Origin: a virus | Direction: 5' to 3' (one strand) | Length of the DNA stretch: 27,806 nt | Virus record (IMG/VR): IMGVR_UViG_3300020470_000166 | Span: 1-27,806 of that record | Shown: positions 12,102 to 27,806 of the stretch, one piece after another | Position numbering within the stretch: the stretch's first letter is position 1 | Layout: each line of letters begins with the position of its first letter | Notes under the pieces: generated by a model | Databases searched by the model: none | Told to the model about the DNA's origin: nothing | The model's input: the letters and a program-made list of their open reading frames with translations, nothing else | Program-made: the position numbers and the translations under genes

Positions 12102-12427
12102 CTAACGAAGCAAGAACAAAAAAAGACATGGATGTAAAAGTCATCCGTTTAGTAACAACAGAAGATGTTGTAGCAGACGTACTAGAAGAGACTGATGATT
12201 CAGTTACAATTCGTGGAGGGATCGTAGCAGTTCCAACCAAGGATGGTAACATCGGATTCGCATCTTGGACACCTCTTCTTGCTAGTCCTGTTGAGGATAT
12301 AACACTTAGCAAGGAGCATGTTGTTTATATTGGTGATCCCAATCCTGCATTGATAGATCATTATGCTAATCAGTTTAGTAAAATTGTAACTCCCGATTCT
12401 GTACAAGACGGAATTATTGTTCCCTAA
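12098..12427 (+). CDS. Small beta-rich protein, paralog A of three
   Basis: A 109-residue protein: VKVIRLVTTEDVVADV, a turn, then SVTIRGGIVAV, a glycine/aspartate loop, FASWTPLL, a strand HVVYIGDPNPALIDHY and a short tail. The same order recurs in the proteins at 17976-18320 and 18321-18596: [IV]xxxTxExx[IV] strand, strand ending in P/V, PW or SW motif, [IV]xx[IL]x[DE]P, then a helix with Tyr. The pattern of five short strands would suit a small beta-barrel such as the Sm-like fold; that is inference. It is co-translated with gp44 (ATGA) and with the next gene (TAATG). Function unknown. Confidence 0.75.
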   Translation: MTNEARTKKDMDVKVIRLVTTEDVVADVLEETDDSVTIRGGIVAVPTKDGNIGFASWTPLLASPVEDITLSKEHVVYIGDPNPALIDHYANQFSKIVTPDSVQDGIIVP

Positions 12428-12948
12428 TGATTGACATTAAACTTTGTGATTTGAATAGTTTTTTTGGATGTGTTGATGCAACTAACACACCTGAACTAAA
12501 AACTAATGCCTTTCGTCCTCTTAGGACTTATCTACAGGAGAAGTCTTTTGAGAAGCATTCTGGTGGTCAACTAACCTATGTTGGTAACTATGCAGATGGT
12601 CAAGACTTCGTTGATAATGATGGAGTCCCTTATGAGATGAAAGGTTCTTTGGGATTATTTAATAAGAATGGATCATGCAAACAGGTTATCCTGAAAAATA
12701 ATATGCCTGGTCGCAGCAAACAAAACTTGGAAAAAACTTTTGAGTATATGTTTTTGGTTGATACTAAGAACATGAGTATTGCTGTTACAACATGGGATAT
12801 TGTGGAGAGTAGATCCAAACTTGATGGAGCAGGTGCAACATTCAAACTTCAAGCAGGTGATTACACTATGCTTGCTGAGAATGTTAAACCATCTGTAAAG
12901 AATATTACTGCAAATGAACTTCTAGAATCTTTAGAGAGCATTCTATGA
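12427..12948 (+). CDS. Putative PvuII-like type II restriction endonuclease (PD-(D/E)xK fold)
   Basis: A 173-residue protein. Residues 58-72 read GQDFVDNDGVPYEMK, which fits the PvuII active-site stretch as I recall it: G-x-D-x-V-D-N-x-G-x-x-Y-E-x-K, with catalytic Asp58, Glu68 and Lys70 of PvuII corresponding to Asp60, Glu70 and Lys72 here. A GGQ motif upstream (46-48) parallels GGK in PvuII. Length is similar to PvuII (157). The next gene is a Dam-type adenine methylase overlapping by four bases, so this looks like a restriction-modification pair carried by a phage. PvuII itself pairs with an N4-cytosine enzyme, and CAGCTG occurs in this window (17544-17549), so specificity may differ. Alternatively it could degrade host DNA. 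The family call rests on one motif. Confidence 0.65.
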   Translation: MIDIKLCDLNSFFGCVDATNTPELKTNAFRPLRTYLQEKSFEKHSGGQLTYVGNYADGQDFVDNDGVPYEMKGSLGLFNKNGSCKQVILKNNMPGRSKQNLEKTFEYMFLVDTKNMSIAVTTWDIVESRSKLDGAGATFKLQAGDYTMLAENVKPSVKNITANELLESLESIL

Positions 12949-13808
12949 AGAAGTCCCTTAAGTCTCTTAAAACACCTCTCAGGTATCCTGGTGGTAAGTC
13001 TCGTGCTTGTATAAAGATGGAGAAGTATCTACCGAATTTGGCAACCTACGAGCAATATAGAGAACCCTTTATTGGGGGTGGGTCTTTTGCAATACATGTT
13101 ACTAAATTGTATAATAATTTACCTATTTGGGTAAATGATTTATATAAACCATTAGCGACATTTTGGCAGCAACTTCAGGAATCTGGAGATGTTATGTCTG
13201 AGAGATTGTTAGAACTTAAAGAGGAATACAATACACCAGACAAAGCAAAAGAACTTTTTGAGACAGCAAAGAAGGAACTAAATGAAAGTGATCAATCCGA
13301 ATTATCTCGTGCTTGTAATTTTTACATTATTAACAAGTGCTCTTTTTCTGGTCTCACTGAGTCCTCCTCCTTCTCACCTCAGGCAAGTACCTCCAACTTT
13401 ACAGTTAGAGGAATTGAAAAACTTCCAGAGTATAAAGAGTTAATATCCAATTGGGTTATAACAAATTACTCTTATGAAGAGGTGTTGAAAGATGGAATGG
13501 ATTCTTTTATATACTTAGATCCACCATATGATATTAAAGATAATCTATATGGTAAGAAGGGTGGAATGCATAAGACATTCGATCATGATAAATTTGCAGA
13601 AGATTGTGAGGCATGTCAGTCTCACCAACTAGTATCATATAATAATTCTCAGTTAGTAAAGGATAGATTTGCTGGTTGGGATGCAGCAGAATATGAACTA
13701 ACATATACCATGAGATCTACAGGAGATTACATGGGCGATCAAAGTACTCGTAAAGAGTTGCTTTTACTAAATTATGAAAGAAGTAGTTTAATGGAGTTCT
13801 TCAAATGA
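12945..13808 (+). CDS. dam: Dam-like DNA adenine N6-methyltransferase (D12 class)
   Basis: A 287-residue alpha-class adenine methyltransferase. It begins with the family hallmark TPLRYPGGKSR (residues 10-20). The AdoMet motif I is EPFIGGGSF (40-48), and the catalytic motif IV is LDPPYD (191-196), in I-then-IV order. D12 enzymes include Dam (GATC) and EcoRV-type methylases, so GATC is a guess. GATC is not rare in this window (for example 452-455). The start overlaps the PvuII-like gene by four bases, which suggests coordinated expression of nuclease and methylase. The stop overlaps the next start as ATGA. Length is close to Dam (278). Confidence 0.92.
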   Translation: MKKSLKSLKTPLRYPGGKSRACIKMEKYLPNLATYEQYREPFIGGGSFAIHVTKLYNNLPIWVNDLYKPLATFWQQLQESGDVMSERLLELKEEYNTPDKAKELFETAKKELNESDQSELSRACNFYIINKCSFSGLTESSSFSPQASTSNFTVRGIEKLPEYKELISNWVITNYSYEEVLKDGMDSFIYLDPPYDIKDNLYGKKGGMHKTFDHDKFAEDCEACQSHQLVSYNNSQLVKDRFAGWDAAEYELTYTMRSTGDYMGDQSTRKELLLLNYERSSLMEFFK

Positions 13809-13963
13809 AATGTAGAGTTCAATTATATGTCGCTGGCAAACTCTTCAATGAAGATGTATATGCTAGAGATTATCAGGAAGCAAGACAAGTTGCTCTTGCA
13901 AGAAATCCAAATGCCAGAGTCGTAAGTGTAAATACGATAATGGAGTCTTTTAATGACAATTGA
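13805..13963 (+). CDS. Small conserved hypothetical protein before gp62
   Basis: A 52-residue ORF, ATG 13805 to TGA 13961-13963. It begins with a strand MKCRVQLYVAGKLFNED, then a helix (YARDYQEARQVALARNP) and a final strand (ARVVSVN), a compact beta-alpha-beta arrangement. It overlaps the upstream methylase by four bases and gp62 by 11. It closely resembles small proteins I associate with marine T4-like phages in this place, from memory. Function unknown. Confidence 0.7.
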   Translation: MKCRVQLYVAGKLFNEDVYARDYQEARQVALARNPNARVVSVNTIMESFNDN

Positions 13964-14336
13964 GTTGAAGCATTGGTTGAATTCTATCAACCATACTAAA
14001 GAGGATTTAACTGATGATCCTGATGCGATCAAATCTTATCCTCCCTATATTATTAACAAATGTCTATCTGGACACCTAGATTGCATACTCTTTGCTAATG
14101 AAATGAACAAATATCCTTCTCTAGATAGGGATATGCAATATAAATTTTATCTAAATAGTCTGAGGAAACGGAAGAGATTCTCTCCGTGGATGCGAAAAGA
14201 TAAGATTAGTAACCTTGACCTTGTTAAACAATACTATGGATATAGTAATGAAAAAGCAATGCAAGCGTTGAATATTTTATCTAAAGAACAACTCGATTTT
14301 ATTAAACAACGACTTGACATTGGTGGAATGACATGA
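13953..14336 (+). CDS. 62: Clamp loader small subunit gp62
   Basis: A 127-residue protein between gp44 and regA, where the clamp loader small subunit belongs. It starts MTIELKHWLNSIN and has the conserved middle PPYIINKCLSGH and PWMRKDKISNLDLVK, followed by YYGYSNEKAMQALNIL, all typical of the short cyanophage gp62. It is shorter than T4 gp62 (187), as other marine homologs are. It joins four gp44 subunits to form the loader of gp45. The start is chosen at ATG 13953, which overlaps the previous ORF by 11 bases; the end overlaps regA by four. Confidence 0.88.
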   Translation: MTIELKHWLNSINHTKEDLTDDPDAIKSYPPYIINKCLSGHLDCILFANEMNKYPSLDRDMQYKFYLNSLRKRKRFSPWMRKDKISNLDLVKQYYGYSNEKAMQALNILSKEQLDFIKQRLDIGGMT

Positions 14337-14773
14337 CTACTAGTACTATTGAACCACAAGTTAACTGGAAGCCTGAAATGATGGTGGAGGTTATGCTTAA
14401 CGAACCAGATGATTTCCTTAAAGTACGTGAGACATTAACACGTATTGGAGTTGCCTCAAGGAAGGAGAAAAAGTTATATCAATCTTGCCACATTCTTCAT
14501 AAGCAAGGTCGCTATTACATTACTCACTTCAAAGAATTATTCGCATTAGATGGGAAACACGCTAACCTTACTGTTAACGACGTTCAGCGTCGGAATCGTA
14601 TCGCTCGTTTGCTTTCTGATTGGGGTCTCATATCTGTAGTCAATGCTGAGAGCATAGCTGATGTTGCTCCATTGAACCAAATTAAGGTCTTAGCATACAA
14701 AGATAAGGGTGAATGGATCCTGGAACAAAAATATAACATCGGTTCTAAGAAAAAAGTGGAAACTACTGAGTAA
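14333..14773 (+). CDS. regA: RegA translational repressor
   Basis: A 146-residue RNA-binding protein that represses translation of early phage mRNAs by occupying their initiation regions. The central part, YITHFKELFALDGKHANLTVNDVQRRNRIARLLSDWGLI in overall order, matches the RegA core with its strand, acidic loop and Arg/Asn helix. It is somewhat longer than T4 RegA (122), with an extra C-terminal segment. The location after gp62 is the T4 order. A new promoter (-10 at 14780-14785) follows within 10 bases, so this gene closes the clamp-loader unit. Confidence 0.92.
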   Translation: MTTSTIEPQVNWKPEMMVEVMLNEPDDFLKVRETLTRIGVASRKEKKLYQSCHILHKQGRYYITHFKELFALDGKHANLTVNDVQRRNRIARLLSDWGLISVVNAESIADVAPLNQIKVLAYKDKGEWILEQKYNIGSKKKVETTE

Positions 14774-14785
14774 ATAGAGTATAAT
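14757..14785 (+). promoter_or_regulatory. Putative sigma70-type promoter for glycogen phosphorylase
   Basis: TGGAAA (14757-14762, four of six matches to TTGACA), a 17-base spacer, and a perfect TATAAT (14780-14785). It begins in the last codons of regA. The predicted start near 14792 leaves a leader of about 15 bases that ends CACCATT before the ATG and has no Shine-Dalgarno sequence. Confidence 0.65.
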
Positions 14786-14806
14786 CTCTTTAGTAGTATC
14801 ACCATT

Positions 14807-17191
14807 ATGTCATTACTTTATAATGGTATCAAAGAACGTCTATTTTATACATTAGGTAAACGTCCAGATATCGCAACATCACATGATTTTTACATGGCAC
14901 TTAGTTATGCCGTGCGAGATCAGATGATGACGCATTGGTTAGACACCAAACCAAAGTCGAAGAAAGAAGTAGCATATCTATCAGCAGAGTTTTTAATTGG
15001 TCCTCAACTTAATAGGAATCTTATTAATCTAGGAATCCGTGATGAGGCAGAACAAGCATTAAAAGAGTACGATCAAGATATAGACAAGATACTTACACAA
15101 GCAGAGGAACCTGGACTTGGTAATGGTGGTCTAGGTCGTCTTGCTGCATGCTATATGGAGTCTCTAGCGACTTTACAAGTACCTGCTACTGGTTATGGTA
15201 TCAGATATAAGTATGGCATCTTTAAGCAGATTATAAGAGAGAATCAACAACTTGAGATAACTGATAATTGGTTGCATGGAGAATGGCCTTGGGAATTGTG
15301 TCAACCAGATGAATCAGTTCATGTAGGATTTGGTGGTAAGGTAGAGAATTATATCTCAGATCATAATCATTATAGGGTACGTTGGGTTCCTGATGAGCAA
15401 GTAGTTGCTGTACCCTATGATGTATTGCAGTTAGGATATAGAGTTAACTCTTGCAATAGATTGAGGTTATGGAGAGCAGATGCTACTGAGACATTTGACT
15501 TCTATGCATTTAATATTGGAGATTATCTTGGTTCAGTAGAACAGAGTGTATCTTCAGAAACTATCTCTAAGGTTTTGTATCCTAATGATGGTACAGATGC
15601 TGGTAAGCAACTAAGACTGAAGCAGCAGTTCTTCTTTGTTAGTGCATCTCTACAAGATATGTTTAACAGTCTTAAGAGAAGAGGTATTCCTATTGAACAG
15701 TTCCCTGAATATTGGCAGGTTCAATTAAATGATACCCATCCATCTGTTGCTGTAGCAGAGTTGATGAGATTGTTTGTGGATGTCAATCATATGGAGTGGG
15801 ATCAGGCATGGGAGTTAACTACTAAGTCTATTGCCTACACTAACCATACTCTTTTACCAGAAGCATTAGAGAAGTGGGATCTTAAACTCTTTAAGACTCT
15901 CCTACCTAGACACATGGAGATTATCTATGAGATTAATCGTAGGTTCTTACAGGTAGTAAGACTTCATTATCCTGGTAATGAATCCATACAAGAGAAGTTA
16001 TCTATTATTGATGAATCTCATAACAAGTATGTTCGTATGGCACATCTTGCTACTGTAGGATCTCATCATGTAAATGGTGTTGCTGCTTTACACTCTGAGT
16101 TAGTTAAGACACAATTGATGCCAGAGTTCTCTGAGTTATGGCCTCATAAGTTTACTAACGTAACTAATGGAGTTACACCTCGTCGTTGGATAGCATCTTG
16201 CAATCCATCATTAACTGAAGTTCTTGATCAATATTGTGGTTCTGATTGGATCACTAATATGGGTCAACTTAAAAAATTAGAAAGTAATATTGACTATGAT
16301 CTATTAGAGAAGTTGGGAACAGCAAAACTAATAGGTAAACATAGACTTGCTGATTATATCTTCAAGAATCTTGGTATATCTGTTGATCCTAATAGCATGT
16401 TTGATGTGCATGTTAAAAGGATACATGAATATAAGAGACAACATTTACTTGTTCTTCAGATTATCTCTCAGTATCTTAATATCAAAAACGGAAAGGACTT
16501 CGTTCCTCGCACAGTAATATTTGGTGGTAAAGCAGCACCAGGTTATTACATGGCAAAACATATCATTCATTTTATTAATTCTGTTGCAGAGGTTATTAAT
16601 ACTGATCCTGATATGGATGGTAAGTTGCGTGTAGTCTTCTTACCAAACTATAGTGTTAAGTTAGGGGAACTTGTATATCCTGCTGCTGATTTATCCGAAC
16701 AGATATCTACAGCAGGTAAGGAAGCATCAGGCACAGGGAATATGAAGTTCATGATGAATGGTGCTCTTACTATAGGAACACTTGATGGTGCTAATGTAGA
16801 GATACGTGAACTTGTAGGAGAAGATAACTTCTTCTTATTTGGTAAGACTGAATCTGAGATTGCAGACTTATGGAAGAATAACTATGATCCTAAGCACTAT
16901 ATGAGTCCAGAACTTTGGGAAGTAATTGATCTCATTAAAGGTGGACATTTTACTGGGGGTAATAAAGATGTCTTTAATCCATTAATGGATAACCTTTTGA
17001 ATCATGATCCCTTCTGCGTATGTGCAGACTTTGATGATTACATACATGCTCATGAACGTGTACGTGATGCATGGAGAGATCGTGATAAGTGGAATCACAT
17101 GGCGGTTATCAACACTTCAAGGTCTGGTTTCTTCTCTTCTGATAGATCTATTACGGATTACTGTACTAAAATTTGGGGTATTCCGACCTAG
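14807..17191 (+). CDS. glgP: Glycogen phosphorylase
   Basis: A 794-residue, apparently complete alpha-glucan phosphorylase. It releases glucose-1-phosphate from glycogen using inorganic phosphate and PLP. Family landmarks in order: GLGNGGLGRLAACY and PATGYGIRYKYG in the N-terminal half; NDTHP; NVTNGVTPRRW; RIHEYKRQ; GGKAAPGYYMAKHII; and the PLP site SGTGNMKFMMNGALTIGTLDGANVE, with the Schiff-base lysine at residue 647. Bacterial enzymes run about 800-840 residues, and the short N-terminus lacks the regulatory extension of eukaryotic ones. Composition is AT-rich and codon use looks like the neighbouring phage genes, so it is not a very recent acquisition. It has its own promoter and is followed by another for hsp20, so it forms a separate unit. 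The likely role is mobilising host glycogen for energy and pentoses during infection. Confidence 0.95.
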   Translation: MSLLYNGIKERLFYTLGKRPDIATSHDFYMALSYAVRDQMMTHWLDTKPKSKKEVAYLSAEFLIGPQLNRNLINLGIRDEAEQALKEYDQDIDKILTQAEEPGLGNGGLGRLAACYMESLATLQVPATGYGIRYKYGIFKQIIRENQQLEITDNWLHGEWPWELCQPDESVHVGFGGKVENYISDHNHYRVRWVPDEQVVAVPYDVLQLGYRVNSCNRLRLWRADATETFDFYAFNIGDYLGSVEQSVSSETISKVLYPNDGTDAGKQLRLKQQFFFVSASLQDMFNSLKRRGIPIEQFPEYWQVQLNDTHPSVAVAELMRLFVDVNHMEWDQAWELTTKSIAYTNHTLLPEALEKWDLKLFKTLLPRHMEIIYEINRRFLQVVRLHYPGNESIQEKLSIIDESHNKYVRMAHLATVGSHHVNGVAALHSELVKTQLMPEFSELWPHKFTNVTNGVTPRRWIASCNPSLTEVLDQYCGSDWITNMGQLKKLESNIDYDLLEKLGTAKLIGKHRLADYIFKNLGISVDPNSMFDVHVKRIHEYKRQHLLVLQIISQYLNIKNGKDFVPRTVIFGGKAAPGYYMAKHIIHFINSVAEVINTDPDMDGKLRVVFLPNYSVKLGELVYPAADLSEQISTAGKEASGTGNMKFMMNGALTIGTLDGANVEIRELVGEDNFFLFGKTESEIADLWKNNYDPKHYMSPELWEVIDLIKGGHFTGGNKDVFNPLMDNLLNHDPFCVCADFDDYIHAHERVRDAWRDRDKWNHMAVINTSRSGFFSSDRSITDYCTKIWGIPT

Positions 17192-17275: not shown

Positions 17276-17710
17276 ATGGGTAACCTAACACGTTTCCACA
17301 CGGCAGATATGCCAGTACTGTTCGATAGAATAATGAAGAACAGTATAGGGATGGACGATTATTTTGATCGGTTCATGAATCTACACGAAACCACATCAAA
17401 CTATCCCCCATATAATTTAATTCAAGTAAACAATGTCGAATCCAGATTGGAGATCGCACTTGCGGGATTCAAGAAGAAGGAAGTCAACGTCTACACGGAG
17501 TTTGGAAAATTATTTGTCGAAGGCCAAAAAGAAGACACAGAGACAGCTGAGACTTTTGTCCATAAAGGACTGGCCAAGCGGTCTTTCTCTAGGGTCTGGA
17601 CAATCACAGATGATACCGAGGTACGAGATGTCCGATTTGATGACGGATTATTGGTCGTAACACTTGGTAAAGTTGTACCAGAGCATCATGCTCGTAAGGA
17701 CTATTTGTAG
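17276..17710 (+). CDS. hsp20: Small heat-shock protein Hsp20 (alpha-crystallin family)
   Basis: A 144-residue chaperone of the alpha-crystallin family, a common gene in marine T4-like cyanophages. It has a short N-terminal arm ending near YPPYNLI, then the beta-sandwich domain: SRLEIALAGFKKKEVNVY, KLFVEGQ, and FSRVWTITDDTEVRDVRFDDGLLVVTLGKVVPE, where the G-L-L-x-V-x-L signature is intact. The C-terminal I-x-I anchor is not obvious; the tail ends PEHHARKDYL. It has a strong Shine-Dalgarno (AAAGGAG) and a structured leader. Codons favour C and G in third position more than in most neighbours, which might reflect high expression or a separate origin. It may stabilise phage or photosynthetic proteins in infected cells. 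Confidence 0.92.
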   Translation: MGNLTRFHTADMPVLFDRIMKNSIGMDDYFDRFMNLHETTSNYPPYNLIQVNNVESRLEIALAGFKKKEVNVYTEFGKLFVEGQKEDTETAETFVHKGLAKRSFSRVWTITDDTEVRDVRFDDGLLVVTLGKVVPEHHARKDYL

Positions 17711-18320: not shown

Positions 18321-18596
18321 ATGGCAGATGAACTTAACCCACAGTTAATAGTGTTCCATACTGGTGGAACTGTTGTTTCTGAAATTGAAGAAGTTGGAGC
18401 AGACATAGGAGAACCTGATTGTAAATTAATCAATCCTTATAATATTGTTCCTCAACCAAATGGTAATGCTACCTTGCAACCTTGGATGGGTGAACTAACA
18501 AATCAGAAAGAATTTATGATTAGTTCTGATAAAATCTTGACTATATGTGAACCTCTTGGTAAAATAAAAGATACATATGAAAGTCTGAACTCGTAA
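18321..18596 (+). CDS. Small beta-rich protein, paralog C of three
   Basis: A 91-residue protein whose ATG directly follows the previous stop and whose TAA overlaps the gp43 ATG (TAATG). Landmarks in the same order as its paralogs: LIVFHTGGTVVSEIEE, CKLINPYNIV, TLQPWMGEL, a strand ILTICEPLGKIKDTY. The glutamate of the first motif (TGE/TTE) is replaced by Gly. The three-gene arrangement B-C-gp43 and the placement of copy A beside gp44 tie the family to replication genes by position only. Confidence 0.75.
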   Translation: MADELNPQLIVFHTGGTVVSEIEEVGADIGEPDCKLINPYNIVPQPNGNATLQPWMGELTNQKEFMISSDKILTICEPLGKIKDTYESLNS

Positions 18597-21094
18597 TGAG
18601 GTTCTATACGAACGTTCAAATGGTTGGGGATAACTTCCTTGTTCGTGGTTATGAAGATGGTAAACACTTCGCAACCCGTGAGAAGTTCTACCCAACCCTT
18701 TTTGTTGAAGCACCTAAAAAGAAGACCCACTATAGAACTCTTGATGGTAAGCAGGTAGCACCTGTTAAACCTGGAACAGTACGTGAGACAAGAGAGTTTA
18801 TAAAGAAGTATGAACCTGTACCAGGATTTGATGTATATGGTAATGAGAGATTTATATACCAGTACATCTCAGAGAAATATCCTGACGACGAATTGAAGTT
18901 TGATATTAGTAAGATTAAATTAGTTACAATTGATATTGAGGTTAAGTCCGAGCAAGGATTCCCTGATGTAGAATCTGCTTCTGAAGAGATACTCCTTATA
19001 TCAATTCAAGACTATGCTACTAAAGAGATTATTACTTGGGGTAATGGTCCATTTAAAACTCATCAAGATAATCTATATTACAAGCAATTCAATAATGAGT
19101 ATGATCTACTAAATGACTTTATCAATTGGTGGATGATAGAGGATAATACTCCAGAAGTTATTACGGGATGGAATAGTAAACTTTATGATATACCATATAT
19201 TGTTCGTAGGATAGAACGTATTCTTGGTGAGAAATTAATGAAGAGATTGTCACCTTGGGGATTGGTGACTGAAGATGAGGTCTTTATTGCTGGTAGAAAA
19301 CAGATTGCTTATGATATAGGTGGTGTATCTCAGTTAGACTATCTTGATCTTTATAAGAAGTTTACTTATAAGGCACAGGAGTCTTATAGGTTGGATTATA
19401 TTGCTAGTGTAGAACTTGGACAGAAGAAGTTAGATCATAGTGAATTCGACACATTTAAAGATTTCTATACAAATGGGTGGAAAAAGTTTGTAGAGTATAA
19501 TATAATTGACGTAGAACTTGTTGACCGTTTGGAAAGCAAGATGAAGTTGATTGAACTCGCACTCACTATGGCATATGAAGCCAAGGTGAATTACGAAGAC
19601 GTATTTTATCAAGTTCGTATGTGGGATACAATCATTTATAACTATCTAAAGAAGAGGGGTATAGTAATTCCTCCAAAGATAAAAACAGATAAAGACGCAA
19701 AGTACGCAGGAGCTTATGTCAAGGAACCGAAACCAGGACGCTATGATTGGGTTGTCTCTTTTGACCTTAATAGTCTGTATCCTCATCTTATTATGCAATA
19801 CAATATCAGTCCAGAGACCCTCAGGGAGACTAGACATCCCAGCTCGAGCGTTGAACGGATTCTAAACAAAGAGTGTGACTTTGACGGTGAGTATTCTGTT
19901 TGTGCTAATGGAGCACAATATAGGAAGGATATTCGTGGGTTCCTTCCTGAACTAATGGATAAGATGTATGGAGATCGTGTGATCTTCAAGAAAAAAATGT
20001 TGGAGGCAAAGCAAGCATATGAGAAGACCCCCACTGAGGCATTGGAAAAGGAAATTGCAAGATGCAACAACATCCAAATGGCGAAAAAGATCTCTCTTAA
20101 TTCTGCTTATGGTGCTATCGGCAATCAGTACTTCAGGTATTTTAAATTAGCAAATGCCGAGGCGATTACTTTATCTGGGCAAGTATCTATTCGATGGATA
20201 GAGAATAAGATGAATGCCTATATGAATAAACTTTTGAAAACAGAGGATGTAGATTATGTTATTGCTAGTGATACTGATAGTATCTATCTCAACTTGGGTC
20301 CTTTGGTTGAGACTGTATACAAGGGGCGAGAGAAAACTAATGAGGTCGTTGTTGGGTTCCTTGACAAGGTGTGTCAAACTAAACTTGAACCTTATATTGA
20401 AAGTGCTTACGAAGAATTGGCCAGGTATGTCAACGCCTACGACCAAAAAATGCAAATGAAGCGAGAGAATATCGCTGAACGTGGTATTTGGACTGCTAAG
20501 AAAAGATATATTTTAAATGTGTGGGATAGTGAAGGAGTAAGATATGAAGAAGCTAAGTTAAAGATGATGGGTATTGAAGCAGTTAAGTCTTCTACTCCTG
20601 CACCATGTCGTCAGTTAATTAAGGAAGCACTTAAACTTATAATGAATGGTACAGAAGATGATGTTATTGATTTTATTGAGCAGTCTCGTAAGGATTTTAA
20701 GAATCTTCCACCAGAAGATATCTCGTTTCCAAGATCTGCAAGTAACGTTGAGAAGTATAGAGCAGTAAATTCGATATATGCAAAAGGAACTCCTATACAT
20801 ATACGGGGGGCTTTGCTGTTTAATTATTATGTTAAGAAACATAAGTTAGATAAAAAGTACTCATTCATCAGTAATGGTGAGAAGGTTAAATTTTGTTATT
20901 TAAAATTACCCAATCCTATACATGAGAATGTGATGTCTTTTATTCAAGACTTCCCTAAGGAACTTGAATTGAACAACTACGTTGATTACGATCTACAATT
21001 TGAGAAGTCTTTTGTTGAACCTCTCAAAGCGATTCTTGATGCGATTGGTTGGAATGTAGAAAAAACTGCGACGCTGGAGGCGTTTTTTACCTAA
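18596..21094 (+). CDS. 43: DNA polymerase gp43 (family B)
   Basis: An 832-residue replicative polymerase. It starts MRFYTNVQMVGDNFLVRGYE, the usual T4-like beginning. An N-terminal proofreading domain has Exo I VTIDIEV (about residue 106) and a later YNIIDVELVDRL (Exo III). Polymerase motif A is DLNSLYPHLI (Asp390), motif B is KKISLNSAYGAIGN, and motif C is SDTDSIY (Asp559, Asp561). All catalytic residues are present. Length is slightly under T4 gp43 (898), usual for marine homologs. The C-terminal end should carry the clamp-binding tail (TATLEAFFT; the FF pair suits this). There is no intein or split, which some T4-like polymerases have. Transcribed from the consensus promoter at 17926. Confidence 0.97.
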   Translation: MRFYTNVQMVGDNFLVRGYEDGKHFATREKFYPTLFVEAPKKKTHYRTLDGKQVAPVKPGTVRETREFIKKYEPVPGFDVYGNERFIYQYISEKYPDDELKFDISKIKLVTIDIEVKSEQGFPDVESASEEILLISIQDYATKEIITWGNGPFKTHQDNLYYKQFNNEYDLLNDFINWWMIEDNTPEVITGWNSKLYDIPYIVRRIERILGEKLMKRLSPWGLVTEDEVFIAGRKQIAYDIGGVSQLDYLDLYKKFTYKAQESYRLDYIASVELGQKKLDHSEFDTFKDFYTNGWKKFVEYNIIDVELVDRLESKMKLIELALTMAYEAKVNYEDVFYQVRMWDTIIYNYLKKRGIVIPPKIKTDKDAKYAGAYVKEPKPGRYDWVVSFDLNSLYPHLIMQYNISPETLRETRHPSSSVERILNKECDFDGEYSVCANGAQYRKDIRGFLPELMDKMYGDRVIFKKKMLEAKQAYEKTPTEALEKEIARCNNIQMAKKISLNSAYGAIGNQYFRYFKLANAEAITLSGQVSIRWIENKMNAYMNKLLKTEDVDYVIASDTDSIYLNLGPLVETVYKGREKTNEVVVGFLDKVCQTKLEPYIESAYEELARYVNAYDQKMQMKRENIAERGIWTAKKRYILNVWDSEGVRYEEAKLKMMGIEAVKSSTPAPCRQLIKEALKLIMNGTEDDVIDFIEQSRKDFKNLPPEDISFPRSASNVEKYRAVNSIYAKGTPIHIRGALLFNYYVKKHKLDKKYSFISNGEKVKFCYLKLPNPIHENVMSFIQDFPKELELNNYVDYDLQFEKSFVEPLKAILDAIGWNVEKTATLEAFFT
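21071..21088 (+). terminator. Possible intrinsic terminator overlapping the gp43 end
   Basis: ACGC (21071-21074), loop TGGAG, GCGT (21080-21083), then a run of six T (21083-21088). The stem is only four pairs, but the U-run is good. It lies in the last codons of gp43. Partial readthrough into the small genes downstream would be expected. Confidence 0.4.
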
Positions 21095-22594: not shown

Positions 22595-23967
22595 TGGACA
22601 CTATTGAAGTAACTATTTTAGAGAATCTCATTTACAATGAGGAATACTCTAGAAAGGTGATACCTTTTATTGAGCCTGATTATTTTCAGGAGCAAGGACA
22701 AAAATTAGTTTTTGAAGAAGTTGTTCAATTTATAACTAAGTATGATACTCAGATAACTGTTGAAGCACTGTTAATTGAGATATCAAATCGTAGGGATCTT
22801 ACTGAACAGTTGCTTAAAGACGTTCAGGTTTTAGTTGGTAATCTTGAACATAGTCCACAGGATGAACAGTGGTTATTAGATTCTACTGAGAAGTGGTGTA
22901 GGGAACGTGCTATTTACTTAGCACTAATGGAATCAATAGGAATTGCAGATGGACAAGATGACAAGAAAGGAAGGGATGCTATTCCTAGCATTTTGTCTGA
23001 CGCTCTGGCTGTTTCTTTCGATAATAATATAGGACACGATTACTTTGGTAATGTTGATGAACGTTATGAGTACTATCACAAGAAGGAAGAGAAGATCCCA
23101 TTTGATCTTGAATACTTTAACAAGATTACAAAGGGTGGAGTACCGAATAAGACTCTCAACATTGCTCTCGCTGGCACAGGTGTTGGAAAATCTTTATTCA
23201 TGTGTCATGTGGCAAGCTCAGTGTTGTTCCAAGGCAAAAATGTTCTCTACATTACATTGGAAATGGCAGAGGAAAAGATTGCGGAGAGGATTGACGCTAA
23301 TCTACTTAATGTCAACATACAAGATATAACAGATCTTCCTAAACCAATGTTCCAAGGGAAGATTGATACTCTTATGGGTAAGACACAAGGGCAACTTATC
23401 ATTAAAGAATACCCTACTGCGTCTGCACACTCAGGACATTTCAAAGCATTACTTAATGAACTTGCATTGAAGAAGTCATTCAGACCTGATATAATATTTG
23501 TAGATTACTTAAACATCTGTGCTTCCAGTCGTTACCGTGGGAACTCAACAGTCAACTCATATTCATACATCAAAGCGATTGCGGAAGAACTCCGTGGTCT
23601 CGCTGTTGAAGCGAATGTTCCTATCATCTCAGCGACTCAAACTACTCGTAGCGGATTTGGTTCTAGTGACGTTGATCTTACCGACACCTCTGAATCTTTT
23701 GGCCTTCCTGCTACTGCTGATTTTATGTTTGCACTTATATCGACAGAAGAGTTGGAAGGTATGAATCAGATAATGGTAAAGCAATTAAAGAATAGATATA
23801 ATGATCCTACAATGTTTAAGAGATTTGTTGTAGGTATTGATAGAGCAAAGATGAGATTATATGATGTTGAGCAAAAGGCACAAGAAGGTGTAGTTGATAA
23901 TGGTCATGATAAGGAGGATACTCCTGAGACTAAGTTTAAGGATAAGTTTGGAGGATTTACCTTTTGA
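22594..23967 (+). CDS. 41: Replicative helicase gp41 (DnaB-like)
   Basis: A 457-residue hexameric helicase that unwinds ahead of gp43 and recruits primase. A helical N-terminal domain (about 1-130) is followed by a RecA-type motor: Walker A GTGVGKSL (194-201), the strand-and-glutamate LYITLEMAEE, Walker B PDIIFVDYLN, and SATQTTRSGFG (motif H3/H4). Length is close to T4 gp41 (475). The TAATG with uvsX points to co-translation. The end is Lys/Asp-rich, FKDKFGGFTF. The primase gp61 and loader gp59 are not in this window. Confidence 0.95.
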   Translation: MDTIEVTILENLIYNEEYSRKVIPFIEPDYFQEQGQKLVFEEVVQFITKYDTQITVEALLIEISNRRDLTEQLLKDVQVLVGNLEHSPQDEQWLLDSTEKWCRERAIYLALMESIGIADGQDDKKGRDAIPSILSDALAVSFDNNIGHDYFGNVDERYEYYHKKEEKIPFDLEYFNKITKGGVPNKTLNIALAGTGVGKSLFMCHVASSVLFQGKNVLYITLEMAEEKIAERIDANLLNVNIQDITDLPKPMFQGKIDTLMGKTQGQLIIKEYPTASAHSGHFKALLNELALKKSFRPDIIFVDYLNICASSRYRGNSTVNSYSYIKAIAEELRGLAVEANVPIISATQTTRSGFGSSDVDLTDTSESFGLPATADFMFALISTEELEGMNQIMVKQLKNRYNDPTMFKRFVVGIDRAKMRLYDVEQKAQEGVVDNGHDKEDTPETKFKDKFGGFTF

Positions 23968-24527
23968 TACATGAAGTCCGTAATTTTATAGAACCTGAGA
24001 TATGCCAATGGGTTATAGATTGGTTTGAGAATACTCCTAAAGATTATGATAATTTACAGGACGAATTCTTTTTGGGTAGGACTATTGCAATATCTAATGT
24101 AAATCAATATGAAGTTAAAAAAAGATTTAAGATATTTGATCAGATGATGGTTCAAACCATTGCTAAATTATTTCCTGAGGATGAATATATTTTTACTGAG
24201 AATACAAATGTAGTTAAGTGGCCTTCTGGAATACGTGCTTCGGATACAAGCAGTTATGCTATGGACCCTCATAGGGATAATGAATATGATCTTGAGAAGG
24301 ACGAGCATTTAACAATGAGGGATTATACTACTATATGTTATTTGAATGATGACTATGATGGTGGACATACATTTTTTCCAGAATATGGTACGGAGTGTAT
24401 TCCTGAGACTGGTAAGGTAGTATTTTTACCGAGTGATATATTACATGGTGTTACTTCAATTCGTGGTGGTACTAGATATACTATTGCTACTTGGTTTACT
24501 AGAGATAGGGAGTCGATAGAATTTTGA
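23964..24527 (+). CDS. 2-oxoglutarate/Fe(II) oxygenase, prolyl-4-hydroxylase-like (TTG start)
   Basis: A 187-residue dioxygenase. The iron triad is His103 and Asp105 (PHRDN) and His161 (LHGVTS). The 2-oxoglutarate arginine is Arg171 in GGTRYTIATWF, and the strand TTICYLNDDYDGGHTFFPE is typical of the prolyl-4-hydroxylase group. The frame needs a TTG start at 23964-23966, overlapping the gp41 stop as TTGA, because no ATG is available before the conserved N-terminal region IHEVRNFIEPE. The substrate is unknown. Such oxygenases are frequent in T4-like cyanophages and may hydroxylate structural proteins or nucleotides. Confidence 0.85.
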   Translation: MIHEVRNFIEPEICQWVIDWFENTPKDYDNLQDEFFLGRTIAISNVNQYEVKKRFKIFDQMMVQTIAKLFPEDEYIFTENTNVVKWPSGIRASDTSSYAMDPHRDNEYDLEKDEHLTMRDYTTICYLNDDYDGGHTFFPEYGTECIPETGKVVFLPSDILHGVTSIRGGTRYTIATWFTRDRESIEF

Positions 24528-25024
24528 ATATACCTTTAGAGTTGATGGGAGATCCATCTGAAATTGAATATCCAGATAGAAGACAGTTTCCATGTGATAA
24601 GACAGTGGATAAGTGGAAGTCTATTGGACATCTTTACGTTAACTATACGGGATTATTGAGAGAGGAATATAGAGGACTTCCTGATTGGTGTACTAAGGTG
24701 AAGAACTATCTTGTTAACAAATACGAGTTACAAGATGCTTGTTCATCTATCTACTGTATGCCACCAGGAACGATTATGCCAGAGCATAGGGATACTTATC
24801 CACGTTATAAGTCTATGCATAATCTTGACAAATTAGAAAAAATCTGTAGAATATTAGTATTCCTAAATGACTGGGAATCAGGACATTACTTCGAGGTTGA
24901 CACAAAACCAGTAGTGAACTGGACCAAAGGAGAATATATAATGTGGAGAGGTGATACACCGCATATTGCGGCTAATGTTGGATCTACCAACAGATATACT
25001 ATGCAAATTACAGCACATGACTAA
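24524..25024 (+). CDS. Second 2OG-Fe(II) oxygenase, aspartyl-hydroxylase-like (TTG start)
   Basis: A 166-residue protein unlike the first in detail but with the same active-site plan. It has His88 and Asp90 (PEHRDTYPRY), His147 (TPHIAANVG) and Arg157 (NRYTMQITA). CRILVFLNDWESGHYFE supplies the core strands, and EYIMWRGDTPH is similar to the Asp/Asn beta-hydroxylase group. It too starts with TTG (24524-24526) in a TTGA overlap; ATG 24545 would remove only seven residues and is an alternative. It overlaps the next gene by eight bases. The two oxygenases are adjacent and presumably co-expressed, but do not look like recent duplicates. Substrate unknown. Confidence 0.8.
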   Translation: MNIPLELMGDPSEIEYPDRRQFPCDKTVDKWKSIGHLYVNYTGLLREEYRGLPDWCTKVKNYLVNKYELQDACSSIYCMPPGTIMPEHRDTYPRYKSMHNLDKLEKICRILVFLNDWESGHYFEVDTKPVVNWTKGEYIMWRGDTPHIAANVGSTNRYTMQITAHD

Positions 25025-25295
25025 AATCAAATTGACAAAAAAGCAAAGACATCAAGTTAAATCTAGGTGGTATTATATTTTCTGGGGTGCTGCTACAGTA
25101 TCTGTCTTTGCTGGACAAATGTATGTTGGATCTGGATATCGTCAGATGTCAAGATCTTTTAATCGTATTTTGGATGCGGTTATTATTGAATTAGTAGAAG
25201 ATAAAAAACATTATCCTAAATTGGAACCAGTCCCAGATCATTGGGAGGAAGAGGGCATGTGGCATCCTACTGATCCACCAATTAGGGTATGGTAA
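25017..25295 (+). CDS. Membrane-anchored hypothetical protein
   Basis: A 92-residue protein. I chose ATG 25017 (MTKIKLTKKQRHQ) rather than the further upstream ATG 24951, which lies deep within the oxygenase. It has a basic N-terminus, one membrane helix (about 18-38, WYYIFWGAATVSVFAGQMYVG), then a helix and a Pro/Trp-rich tail (PVPDHWEEEGMWHPTDPP). The positive-inside rule puts the N-terminus in the cytoplasm. A similar basic/helix/WxP arrangement occurs in marine T4-like phages, from memory. Function unknown. Confidence 0.75.
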   Translation: MTKIKLTKKQRHQVKSRWYYIFWGAATVSVFAGQMYVGSGYRQMSRSFNRILDAVIIELVEDKKHYPKLEPVPDHWEEEGMWHPTDPPIRVW

Positions 25296-25308
25296 TTAAA
25301 GGAGGGAT

Positions 25309-25635
25309 ATGAGTCCAGATAGACACGATATCCCAATCATTGGAGACTTCTATACAAAAGCAGAAGTGGATAAAATGATTGCGGATGCTCTAGCAGAAGC
25401 AAGAGCGATTGATGAAGCATCTATGCGGAAACATAATCGTGATGCTACGATCATAAGTATGATCCTTGGGTTTACTTGCCTTGCATTATTCCTTGATGGA
25501 TTACTTCGCATACTCGGAATCATTCCACCATTTATGGATTTAGATGTTAATGTTATAGATGACATCATTGATAAAGTAGAAGGTGATATGATGCCTATGA
25601 TTCAAGATACTTATAAGAAGATTCCAAAATGGTAA
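25309..25635 (+). CDS. Membrane protein with N-terminal coiled segment
   Basis: A 108-residue protein with a strong Shine-Dalgarno (AAGGAGGG, 25298-25305). The start reads RHDIPIIGDFYTKAEVDKMIADAL, a phrase similar to short tail- or capsid-decoration repeats (xxTKAEVDxxI) seen in phage proteins. It is followed by an Ala-rich helix, a membrane helix (about 46-73) and an acidic C-terminal part. It pairs with the membrane protein upstream at a 13-base gap and overlaps the sulfotransferase by seven. Function unknown. Confidence 0.7.
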   Translation: MSPDRHDIPIIGDFYTKAEVDKMIADALAEARAIDEASMRKHNRDATIISMILGFTCLALFLDGLLRILGIIPPFMDLDVNVIDDIIDKVEGDMMPMIQDTYKKIPKW

Positions 25636-26345
25636 GAAGAGCAGTTATTGATTATTTGGTTGATGAGTATCCTGAGTACTGCTCTACATTTACCTTTAAA
25701 TTGCATAAAGGATTACCAGGACAAGCAATTCATAGAGATGGTTTTATAAATTGTTACTTAGATGTTAAACGTAAGTTAGTTTATTTACATGTTGATAAGT
25801 GCGGTAGTACGTCAATAACATCAGCATTCTTAATGGAAGGAGAGAGTTTTATTCCTCTTGAGAAGTTTCCTAAAGCGAATGACTATGATGCTATGGCAAA
25901 GTTTTTAGTTGAGAGTGGATATACATTTTTTTCAATGTCTAGAGATCCTGTTAGTAGATGGATTTCTGGACTTAATGAGTTTATGTGTAGATATAAAGCA
26001 CCTACTGAATGGGTAATTAAACAAGTCAAAAATAAGAAGTATGTATTTGATGAGCATACCGCACCACAGCACTTGTTTTTAAGACTATGTTCGGATTATA
26101 ATGGTACGATAAAGTTACTTAAATTAGACAGTCACTTAAATGATAAGGTTAACAATTATCTTAGAAGTGTTCCAGGTAGGGAACATAAAGATCTAGAGAT
26201 AGGTCATTTAAGAGACTCTAAATATTTTGTGCCAAATTGTACTATGTTAGCGAAGAAGGTATTTCACACATACATTGAACCTGACATGGAAGCCTTTAAT
26301 AAATTTTATGCTCCCGACTATGAGTTATACAGTTCCGCTGAATGA
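25629..26345 (+). CDS. Sulfotransferase-family protein (PAPS-binding)
   Basis: A 238-residue protein with the two motifs of PAPS-dependent sulfotransferases. The 5'-phosphosulfate loop is HVDKCGSTSI (residues 54-63; typical HxPKxGSTS). The 3'-phosphate motif is SRDPVSRWISG (104-114; RDPxxRxxS). A histidine-bearing pair between and after these may be catalytic. These enzymes move sulfate from PAPS to sugars or tyrosines. The first 45 residues do not match the family and hold IHRDG, reminiscent of a dioxygenase-like HxD, probably coincidental. It starts a block with an aminotransferase and a glycosyltransferase, so glycan sulfation is the likely job. Substrate unknown. Confidence 0.8.
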   Translation: MVRRAVIDYLVDEYPEYCSTFTFKLHKGLPGQAIHRDGFINCYLDVKRKLVYLHVDKCGSTSITSAFLMEGESFIPLEKFPKANDYDAMAKFLVESGYTFFSMSRDPVSRWISGLNEFMCRYKAPTEWVIKQVKNKKYVFDEHTAPQHLFLRLCSDYNGTIKLLKLDSHLNDKVNNYLRSVPGREHKDLEIGHLRDSKYFVPNCTMLAKKVFHTYIEPDMEAFNKFYAPDYELYSSAE

Positions 26346-26958
26346 TCAGGTTGCCAGAGATTGTGCAATAAAAGAATTTGAAGATTTATTAGCAGAATTT
26401 TATGGTGCTCCATATGCAATAGCAGTGGACTCATGTACTCATGCAATGGAATTGTGTATGAGATATGAGAAGTATGATACTGTTAAAGTTCCTACTCATA
26501 CTTACCTATCAGTACCTTTGATAATGAAGAAGATAGGTGGTATTAAATGGAGATGGGAAGATCTTGAATGGAAAGAATATTATTATATTACTGGAACAAA
26601 TATAATTGATGCTGCTGTGATATGGAAGAAGGATTCATATATTCCTGGTACATATTTTTGTTTAAGTTTTCAGCAAAGAAAACATCTACCGTTAGGACGT
26701 GGTGGTATGATTCTTACTGATGATCCTAAAGCATATTATTATCTAAAGAAGATGTCATGTGATGGTAGAGATTTTTATAGACCTTGGAGAGATCAAGATA
26801 TAGATGTTATGGGTTATCATTATTATATGACTCCAGAAAAAGCAGCAGAAGGTATAGATAAATTTCAGGATGCATTGGTAAAACCAACTAGGGAATGGTC
26901 TTACAAGGATTATCCTTACTTACCAGGATTGAGTGTATTTAAATATGACAAGTTTTGA
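26320..26958 (+). CDS. Minimal DegT/DnrJ/EryC1-type PLP aminotransferase
   Basis: A 212-residue protein; ATG 26320 (MSYTVPLNDQ) is preferred over 26275, which lies inside the sulfotransferase. It overlaps that gene by 26 bases. EFYGAPYAIAVDSCTHAMEL matches the DegT N-terminal cofactor region, THTYLSVP the next strand, and SFQQRKHLPLGRGGMILTDD the PLP-lysine loop (Lys121 expected to hold the cofactor). It ends with MTPEKAAEGIDKFQDAL. Typical family members have about 370 residues. This one lacks most of the middle and C-terminal segments yet keeps the lysine loop. A sugar-amino-transfer role with the neighbouring glycosyltransferase is likely, but activity is uncertain. Confidence 0.8.
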   Translation: MSYTVPLNDQVARDCAIKEFEDLLAEFYGAPYAIAVDSCTHAMELCMRYEKYDTVKVPTHTYLSVPLIMKKIGGIKWRWEDLEWKEYYYITGTNIIDAAVIWKKDSYIPGTYFCLSFQQRKHLPLGRGGMILTDDPKAYYYLKKMSCDGRDFYRPWRDQDIDVMGYHYYMTPEKAAEGIDKFQDALVKPTREWSYKDYPYLPGLSVFKYDKF

Positions 26959-27806
26959 TGATAAACTGAAGGGGTTGCCTCCCATATTTTATTTAAATAT
27001 GGATCATAGAACTGAGAGGAAGGCACACCTTGAGAATGAATTTAGTAAGTGGGGTATCACAGATTATACTAGGGTATCTGCTAATAGATTTCATACAAGT
27101 AAAATAAGTGAATGGGGTCATAAATTAGACTTGATGCTTCTTGCTCCATCTGATGCATCAATTGTAATGAATGAGTTCTGGACATTTATTGATTGGTATG
27201 ATTCTGGTATATCAGAAAATATGCTTTTGATACAGGATGATTTGGCATTAGATCTAATAGAGCATTGGCCATTTGATTGGAAGACTTTATATAATAATTT
27301 ACCATATGATTGGGATATAGTACAACTATACTATTGCCATAATGATTATATAAGAATGCACTTATCACCTAGAATTGGTGAGAGTTCATCTGCTGCATGT
27401 ATTCTCATTAACAGACACTTTGTTGAGAAGTTAAAGAAGTTACATCTTCAACCTGATGGATCATTTAAATTGAAGAATGATCTAAGAGATGTTACTGTTC
27501 CACCAGAATGTTATAGTAGTGATGACTGGTTAATATATCAAGTTGGTAAGTCATATACATTACCTGTTTTTGCTTTAAACCAAAGACTAGCAACACGACC
27601 AGATAATAGACAAGAAGCAAATAAAGATGAAGAAGTATATGATGAAGTAGTTGCTCAGTATCATAATAAAATATATGATATACTAGCAACAACATGTACT
27701 AGAAAGTGGTGGGAAACTCAGAGCAAGAGATTTACTGCTGATGATATTTTAAGTTGGGGTTCTAGTGTACATAATGATATGATTATTCAATTACCTCAGT
27801 ATGATA
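26945..27806 (+). CDS. Glycosyltransferase family 25-like protein (partial at right edge)
   Basis: An open frame from ATG 26945 that overlaps the aminotransferase stop by 14 bases and stays open to the window edge (287 residues, no stop seen). PIFYLNMDHRTERKAHLENEF matches the GT25 opening (I-N-L-x-x-R-x-x-R), and MLLIQDDLALD resembles the [EQ]DD motif that binds the metal and nucleotide sugar. The rest has many aromatics and a charged linker (RQEANKDEEVYDE). GT25 enzymes decorate lipooligosaccharides or collagen-like chains. A sulfotransferase and sugar aminotransferase directly upstream make a glycan-modification module. The C-terminus and final length are outside the window. Confidence 0.7.
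   Translation, partial: MTSFDDKLKGLPPIFYLNMDHRTERKAHLENEFSKWGITDYTRVSANRFHTSKISEWGHKLDLMLLAPSDASIVMNEFWTFIDWYDSGISENMLLIQDDLALDLIEHWPFDWKTLYNNLPYDWDIVQLYYCHNDYIRMHLSPRIGESSSAACILINRHFVEKLKKLHLQPDGSFKLKNDLRDVTVPPECYSSDDWLIYQVGKSYTLPVFALNQRLATRPDNRQEANKDEEVYDEVVAQYHNKIYDILATTCTRKWWETQSKRFTADDILSWGSSVHNDMIIQLPQYD

Follow-up and report, generated by a model that had tools for sequence, protein, structure and literature searches.

The window analysed here, the whole of a virus record 27,806 bases long (IMG/VR record IMGVR_UViG_3300020470_000166), carries at 14807–17191 a gene, glgP, for a glycogen (alpha-glucan) phosphorylase. We put at about 0.68 the probability that this gene yields a functional phosphorylase of host ancestry that has been kept by selection and that draws on host glycogen to supply phage nucleotide synthesis, perhaps escaping host redox control. 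That reading starts from what is directly observed: an intact coding sequence, its catalytic residues, a single phage clade, purifying selection, the placement of the gene, and the absence of two end segments that host enzymes carry.

The gene and its predicted enzyme

14807–17191, + strand: glgP, glycogen/alpha-glucan phosphorylase of family GT35, 794 amino acids (open reading frame, ORF; profile and PDB matches)
16745–16747, + strand: codon of Lys647, aligned with Lys680 of human liver phosphorylase (alignment to 1fa9)

The frame begins with ATG and contains no internal stop. In profile searches PF00343 aligns across its full length (1–713 of 713 positions; 1034 bits against a cut-off of 27) and TIGR02093 reaches 1139.9 bits (cut-off 552.9), full-length matches above curated cut-offs that place the protein in GT35. 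The top structural match is 9wvu, "Alpha-1,4 glucan phosphorylase" (query 4–791, E = 4.7e-303). Two narrower equivalogs, the glycogen phosphorylase PRK14986 (NF011562; 873 against a cut-off of 1546) and the maltodextrin phosphorylase PRK14985 (NF011561; 908.8 against 1273), score below their cut-offs. PHROG 23782, a phage-database family of 774 positions with no assigned function, also covers the protein (positions 12–762, 916 bits), and phosphorylases on phage or prophage records have therefore been clustered already.

Lys647 aligns with Lys680 of human liver phosphorylase 1fa9, which we take to be the pyridoxal phosphate (PLP) lysine. Similarly, Lys537, Arg538, Lys543, Glu639, His347, Asn454 and Tyr542 align with residues 568, 569, 574, 672, 377, 484 and 573 of 1fa9, presumably catalytic or phosphate-binding. 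Lys647 and these seven positions do not vary across the rows compared: 117 from phages, 43 from hosts and 11 from outgroups, a count that keeps near-identical rows and excludes five second-copy host rows from the host group. At the level of sequence it is confirmed that the gene encodes an intact alpha-glucan phosphorylase, a known kind of enzyme. A reading made earlier from the sequence alone had claimed a complete enzyme with its PLP lysine at 647 and a composition like that of the neighbouring phage genes; the profile matches and the alignment to 1fa9 bear out the first claim, and the GC content of glgP (0.371; 0.272 at third codon positions), within the range of the other window genes, the second.

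Origin and selection

In a tree of 76 rows, 43 phage GlgPs form one clade beside host GlgP (support 100 in the Shimodaira–Hasegawa-like approximate likelihood-ratio test, SH-aLRT; stem 0.59), with 27 host proteins grouped next to it at support 88, and a tree of 36 rows again unites 16 of 16 phage rows (support 100; hosts 77). Both were built as quick trees. The host group corresponds to the GTDB family to which a Cyanobium genome belongs, referred to in this text as Cyanobiaceae; L151, initially grouped with the hosts as a 28th row, comes from an Acaryochloris genome and falls outside that group. The search baits were phage proteins, and acquisitions unlike the phage clade could escape them. 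Within the clade stands one gene of a cultured T4-like cyanophage, the "carbohydrate phosphorylase" of S-SCSM2R (PQ898602.1, XQU50173.1), 71% identical to the window's over 99% of the query; the host of this isolate is Synechococcus sp. WH7803.

Phage–phage pairs are 70–96% identical after thinning at 97%, and the highest phage–host identity among the host proteins fetched (thinned set) is 71%; across the 30 best-matching Cyanobiaceae genomes host GlgP is 67–69% identical. Ratios of nonsynonymous to synonymous substitution (dN/dS, NG86) lie between 0.055 and 0.183 over 11 pairs, and phage glgP is under purifying selection. Descent from a host and retention under selection, the marks of an auxiliary metabolic gene, are both found here, in the clade beside host GlgP and in the dN/dS values. 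The donor of glgP to a T4-like cyanophage lineage would have been a picocyanobacterial ancestor (Cyanobiaceae), and a single ancient acquisition is the simplest account. The sequence-only reading had argued for long residence, with which the phage-only clade, the purifying selection and the matching composition agree, and the check it had proposed—a database search and a tree with host GlgP—returned the phage clade (support 100) beside host GlgP.

Absence of both end segments of the host enzyme

17162–17188, + strand: short C-terminus, Cys786 kept, four residues (GIPT) after Trp790, then the stop (alignment)

The Cyanobiaceae enzymes, the likely donor lineage, share the family and the catalytic residues with the phage protein but carry an N-terminal extension and a C-terminal tail of 13–32 residues that it lacks. 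Specifically, in a single alignment from which rows with identical last 200 residues were removed, 2–11 residues (median 4) follow Trp790 in phages (79 complete-end rows of 85), against 13–32 (median 14) in Cyanobiaceae (54 rows, including the partial L389), 14–32 (median 21) in other cyanobacteria (25 rows, mostly best-scoring loci) and 7–21 in non-cyanobacteria (8 rows). Cysteine occurs in this tail in 0/79 phage, 50/54 Cyanobiaceae, 6/25 other cyanobacterial and 0/8 non-cyanobacterial rows. Just before the tail, Cys786 is kept in 78/79 phage rows and present in 41/54 Cyanobiaceae rows, 39 of which have it together with a tail cysteine.

At the other end, Cyanobiaceae proteins have 28–66 residues ahead of phage position 4 when counted from the first possible start (52 rows; cysteine in 48), and phages a median of 4 (range 3–41; 80 rows; cysteine in 0); six phage rows, taken mechanically to the first start codon, have longer in-frame additions that are unlike the host's. 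A PTPGC motif of the host extension was found in 43/60 cellular loci and 0/130 phage loci (duplicates counted). The short N-terminus of the window's protein is real, because its frame opens only about 11 codons ahead of the ATG (open frame 805). Since hosts and the other sampled cyanobacteria have longer ends, both segments appear, most simply, to have been lost once, on the phage stem. These missing segments had no place in the sequence-only account, and they may matter more than the other points it made.

Proposed role

Cyanobacterial GlgP has been described as carrying a C-terminal regulatory peptide, in which, for Synechocystis GlgP1, two cysteines are reported to form a thioredoxin-controlled disulfide (PMC12892837, section 8). 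By that description the phage protein resembles GlgP1 as a cyanobacterial-type GT35 phosphorylase and differs in ending four residues after Trp790, and a GlgP1-type extension with two cysteines is lacking from the window's protein, whose tail of four amino acids is free of cysteine.

During infection, phage GlgP would cleave host glycogen with phosphate to glucose-1-phosphate, which phosphoglucomutase would convert to glucose-6-phosphate; glucose-6-phosphate dehydrogenase would then lead this into the oxidative pentose phosphate pathway, giving NADPH and ribose for phage deoxynucleoside triphosphates (dNTPs). The route from glycogen to this pathway is as given in PMC12892837 and PMC11257934. 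As a catalytic core only, without the host's N-terminal extension and C-terminal peptide, the enzyme may act regardless of host redox, because the peptide reported to be under thioredoxin control in Synechocystis GlgP1 is missing from it. Catalysis, expression, carbon flux and escape from regulation are what we infer. Cyanophages carry other carbon genes of host origin, talC, zwf, gnd and cp12, which are believed to direct flux into the pentose phosphate pathway (PMC10452541); glgP would serve that pathway too, but further upstream, at the storage polymer.

The sequence-only reading had proposed such a feed into the pentose phosphate pathway and nucleotide synthesis, and the gene neighbourhoods leave this plausible. 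Some glgP loci lie behind the ribonucleotide reductase genes nrdAB and others in the DNA polymerase block, both of which fit dNTP supply. Of 18 glgP records, mostly chosen for length, 6 have talC (two of these, L023 and L024, appear to be near-copies of each other), 2 have CP12 and 3 have psbA-type genes.

Several points weigh against this interpretation. It is in GlgP1 of Synechocystis that the redox switch has been reported, and its extension by analogy to the tail of marine hosts would be the weakest link; marine hosts have one tail cysteine plus Cys786, as opposed to the two-cysteine peptide of GlgP1, and two or more tail cysteines occur in only 2/25 other cyanobacterial rows. The shortening of phage GlgP may be plain genome economy. 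GlgP is matched in 143/151 sampled Cyanobiaceae genomes; nearly all hosts thus have the pathway already, and the phage copy supplements it and fills no gap. A talC match is absent on 12 of the 18 glgP records (all except S-SCSM2R may be fragments, and zwf and gnd were not searched). As to ancestry, an origin inside the small-genome host group, with phages and those hosts as one clade, is not rejected on the 36-row tree (approximately unbiased, AU, test, p = 0.316).

Some of these points suit a plainer explanation, in which phage GlgP is an ordinary extra copy that does the host enzyme's job and adds dosage when host expression is off, its missing ends reflecting pressure on gene length and having no regulatory meaning. 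Host GlgP is indeed nearly universal in the family, the core between the missing ends is intact, and non-cyanobacterial GlgPs likewise lack a tail cysteine, some having tails as short as 7 residues (range 7–21). The tail, however, is short in 79/79 complete-end phage rows and its range does not overlap that of cyanobacteria, while the six phage rows with long N-terminal additions unlike the host's indicate that length is not always trimmed; we regard the extra-copy explanation as rather unlikely. An enzyme released from regulation, with both ends lost on one stem and with them the tie by which cyanobacteria would couple glycogen breakdown to photosynthetic redox state, would let infected cells burn glycogen even in the light, and a PF03332 (HAD-type) gene present in some phages (see below) could complete a glycogen-to-pentose-phosphate path of the phage's own. 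This fuller version we advance tentatively, at a little under even odds.

Genomic setting and integrity of the contig

14333–14773, + strand: regA, translational repressor, 5' neighbour of glgP (PF01818, PHROG 242)
17276–17710, + strand: hsp20, 3' neighbour of glgP (PF00011, PHROG 432)
13953–14336, + strand: gp62, clamp-loader subunit, syntenic marker (PF16790)
18596–21094, + strand: gp43, DNA polymerase, 83% identical to those of P-SSM2 and P-SSM5 (PHROG and protein search)

The location between regA and hsp20 given by the sequence-only reading holds on the family matches of both flanks. The order gp62–regA–glgP–hsp20–gp43–uvsX–gp41 is that of a T4-like replication block and embeds the gene in a Kyanoviridae genome. 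By gp43, the closest named phages are P-SSM2 and P-SSM5, both of Prochlorococcus (83%), while identities up to 84% are found in single-cell virus records, and the host of the window's phage is inferred to be a marine picocyanobacterium.

That a bacterial glgP was joined to phage DNA by assembly, or entered as host contamination, can be all but dismissed. Metagenomic contigs are short, and one cellular-looking GlgP (L389) does sit in a record classed as viral; yet two contigs, L005 (99%) and L087 (98%), align to the window unbroken across both glgP junctions, the regA–glgP–hsp20 order recurs in many contigs (L003, L004, L006, L102, L103 and L104), a complete isolate genome carries glgP, and the clade is phage-only. 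The spacing from glgP to hsp20 is about 660 nt in those recurring contigs (at least in L102, L103 and L104) and 85 nt in the window. Chimerism, which was to have counted against the sequence-only reading, is ruled out by the two contigs that cover both junctions in one piece together with the recurring gene order.

Three side observations concern these contigs. L087 (PBPX01000015.1, 8267 bp) is titled as an Actinomycetota metagenome-assembled genome and reads gp62–regA–glgP–hsp20; regA, hsp20 and a GlgP sharing 98% identity with that of the window show it to be a phage contig mis-binned into a bacterial genome. L063 is identical to the window over about 12,200–15,800 and then 67–85% identical from 16,000, inside glgP, to its end (window position about 16770), a drop that could be explained by allele exchange within the gene or by an artefact at the end of the assembly. 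After gp41, the window stretch 23964–27805 has family matches to a 2-oxoglutarate (2OG)-Fe(II) oxygenase, a sulfotransferase and a DegT-type aminotransferase, and to an Asp/Arg hydroxylase below cut-off.

Where glgP sits in other phages

After removal of the cellular-looking L389 from 93 loci, 92 distinct glgP loci remain: 65 with regA and/or hsp20, 16 behind nrdB, 6 near psbA and 5 of unresolved position. Where regA lies upstream, the gap to glgP (between matches) is 5–44 nt in 56/62 loci. Behind nrdB, a ribonucleotide reductase gene, nrdA is seen too where the contig extends far enough; the 770- and 394-amino-acid genes upstream of glgP in this context, considered as glycogen enzymes on account of their size, proved to be NrdA and NrdB. 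In S-SCSM2R, unlike the window, glgP lies outside the regA–hsp20 gap, which has no annotated gene; its neighbours are a peroxiredoxin gene on one side and glycosyltransferase genes on the other, and psbA follows about 7.5 kb further on. With the tree rows labelled "regA" or "other", no fewer than 7 position changes are required, counted by starred branches, a number whose true value may be slightly lower, as the unresolved rows L037 and L039 were scored "other". These placements indicate that glgP has moved repeatedly among replication, dNTP-synthesis and photosynthesis neighbourhoods, as judged from the mapped sequences.

The gap itself was sampled from IMG/VR with three RegA proteins as baits (at least 600 matches each, the best 80 kept), a sample that leans to the baits. 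It gave 148 loci after deduplication, of which 15 end too early and 133 could be resolved: the gap is shorter than 400 bp in 97, longer without glgP in 28, and holds glgP in 8. The 28 longer gaps contain 34 ORFs of at least 80 amino acids; 20 were scanned against families, with matches above cut-off to 2OG-Fe(II) oxygenases (5), PF03332 phosphomannomutase-like proteins (2), a nucleotidyltransferase (1) and a DNA methylase (1), two matches below it (an IS110-type transposase and a nucleotidyltransferase) and none for 9. Large proteins without a Pfam match are also among the cargo, e.g., at L276:2652–4427 and L362:2803–5355. Among named phages, the gap is about 160 bp in S-SM2 and is filled by a 3.5-kb gene in SynMITS9220M01. 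Given these diverse contents, and glgP in only 8/133, T4-like cyanophages use the regA–hsp20 gap as a general slot for cargo, and a minority of them have glgP there.

A PF03332 phosphomannomutase-like gene lies within 800 nt after glgP in 13/92 loci, directly 3' of glgP or overlapping it, e.g., at L012:2463–3173, L023:2955–3668 and L146:4134–4829. The L012 protein has many phosphomannomutase matches and a weak one to the alpha-phosphoglucomutase 4bnd (E = 3e-6), and proteins of this kind could, judging from such matches, perform the step from glucose-1-phosphate to glucose-6-phosphate. A specific link between the two genes is unsupported: the gene occurs within 800 nt in 9/57 glgP loci whose downstream sequence reaches 1000 nt or more, against 3/125 regA–hsp20 stretches without glgP (p = 0.0017), but against occupied control sites only the counts are 8/39 and 3/28 (p = 0.34); it was not found in S-SCSM2R, and PF03332-like genes occur in P-TIM68, S-SSM7 and S-SSM6a, cyanophages not among the GlgP matches.

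These neighbours bear on a further alternative, that phage GlgP works in the direction of making or remodelling glucan, or that its sugar phosphate serves phage glycan genes instead of nucleotides. Phosphorylase reactions are reversible, the genes downstream of glgP in S-SCSM2R carry the annotations glycosyltransferase, KdsB and KdsA, and the 13 loci with PF03332 would suit it as well; the 16/92 loci behind nrdAB and the 65/92 in the replication block are a better fit to nucleotide supply, and we consider the glucan or glycan alternative improbable.

Distribution

An IMG/VR scan with the window protein found relatives encoded in 95/95 candidate stretches, and one with a 16-row alignment in 201/214, the best 80 loci of each scan being retained. 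Among deposited phage genomes 22 records match the window's GlgP; S-SCSM2R (71%) is the sole cyanophage, the other 21 being Salmonella, Escherichia or gut records at <60% identity, while 451 records in the same collection have a gp43 at least 60% identical to the window's (duplicates and single-cell viruses counted). Phage glgP is not rare in uncultured viruses and is rare among deposited phages. The claim of the sequence-only reading that the gene may be new or rare therefore divides: the scans, S-SCSM2R and the viral homologues mentioned in PMC10452541 speak against it for uncultured viruses, and rarity stands for deposited phages. The related question, whether glgP is common and already described at this locus, divides too, as most glgP loci (65/92) sit there but only 8/133 resolved regA loci of the regA-baited sample hold it, and a description of the locus was not found in print. 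With one deposited cyanophage carrier set against those 8 loci, it is suggested that deposited genomes under-represent glgP.

A scan with a host GlgP as bait returned 12 stretches with 11 relatives, seven on known contigs and L387, L390 and L391 new (the tree does not include these three). It gave no second independent acquisition of glgP, a weak test given its narrow bait patterns. L389 (IMGVR_UViG_3300044729_004416, 50 kb) is a case apart: this record, classed as viral, encodes an incomplete GlgP that shares 74% identity with the host bait and has a host-type tail, and the neighbouring frames look cellular by eye.

Expression of glgP

14757–14785, + strand: promoter-like TGGAAA-17-TATAAT (scan, 10 of 12; weak)

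The sequence-only reading gave glgP a sigma70-type promoter of its own, a claim that is weak. Promoter-like sites in the scanned stretch number 8 against 14.9 in shuffles, fewer than chance, and intergenic TATAAT is confined to 9 distinct upstream sequences of the window's close relatives (one identical to the window's). TATAAT does occur within 75 nt upstream of glgP in 41/42 distinct sequences, against 121/1920 random 75-nt windows from the same loci; a promoter cannot be argued from that excess, because in more distant phages the match falls inside regA, on Tyr-Asn codons. The first possible glgP start often lies within or just after regA, and transcription continuing from regA into glgP is no less likely than a promoter for glgP alone.

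Relation to earlier work and significance

Viral homologues of this enzyme have previously been mentioned in passing. According to PMC10452541, cells infected by S-SM1 continue to make 12 host proteins; GlgP is one of them and belongs to the 8 that have homologues in phages and/or viral fragments. Glycogen phosphorylase is absent from the 45 cyanophage gene classes in the legend of Figure 2 there. Alpha-glucan phosphorylase is listed in mangrove soil viromes (PMC6460857), and glgA is reported in ocean viromes, with no phosphorylase found in the passages available (PMC4053976). Titles and abstracts of the open-licence PMC literature yielded no description of the phage GlgP clade, its positions or its missing ends, nor a paper on S-SCSM2R. 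What is new here is a widespread phage GlgP lineage that consistently lacks host-type ends.

The carbon source during infection matters, as cyanophages carry genes that push carbon into the pentose phosphate pathway and infected cells stop CO2 fixation (PMC10452541), and phage GlgP points to stored glycogen. The isolate S-SCSM2R makes the possible release from redox control testable. If the short enzyme is indeed free of that control, it would be a clean case in which a virus keeps the catalytic core of a host enzyme and discards its switch.

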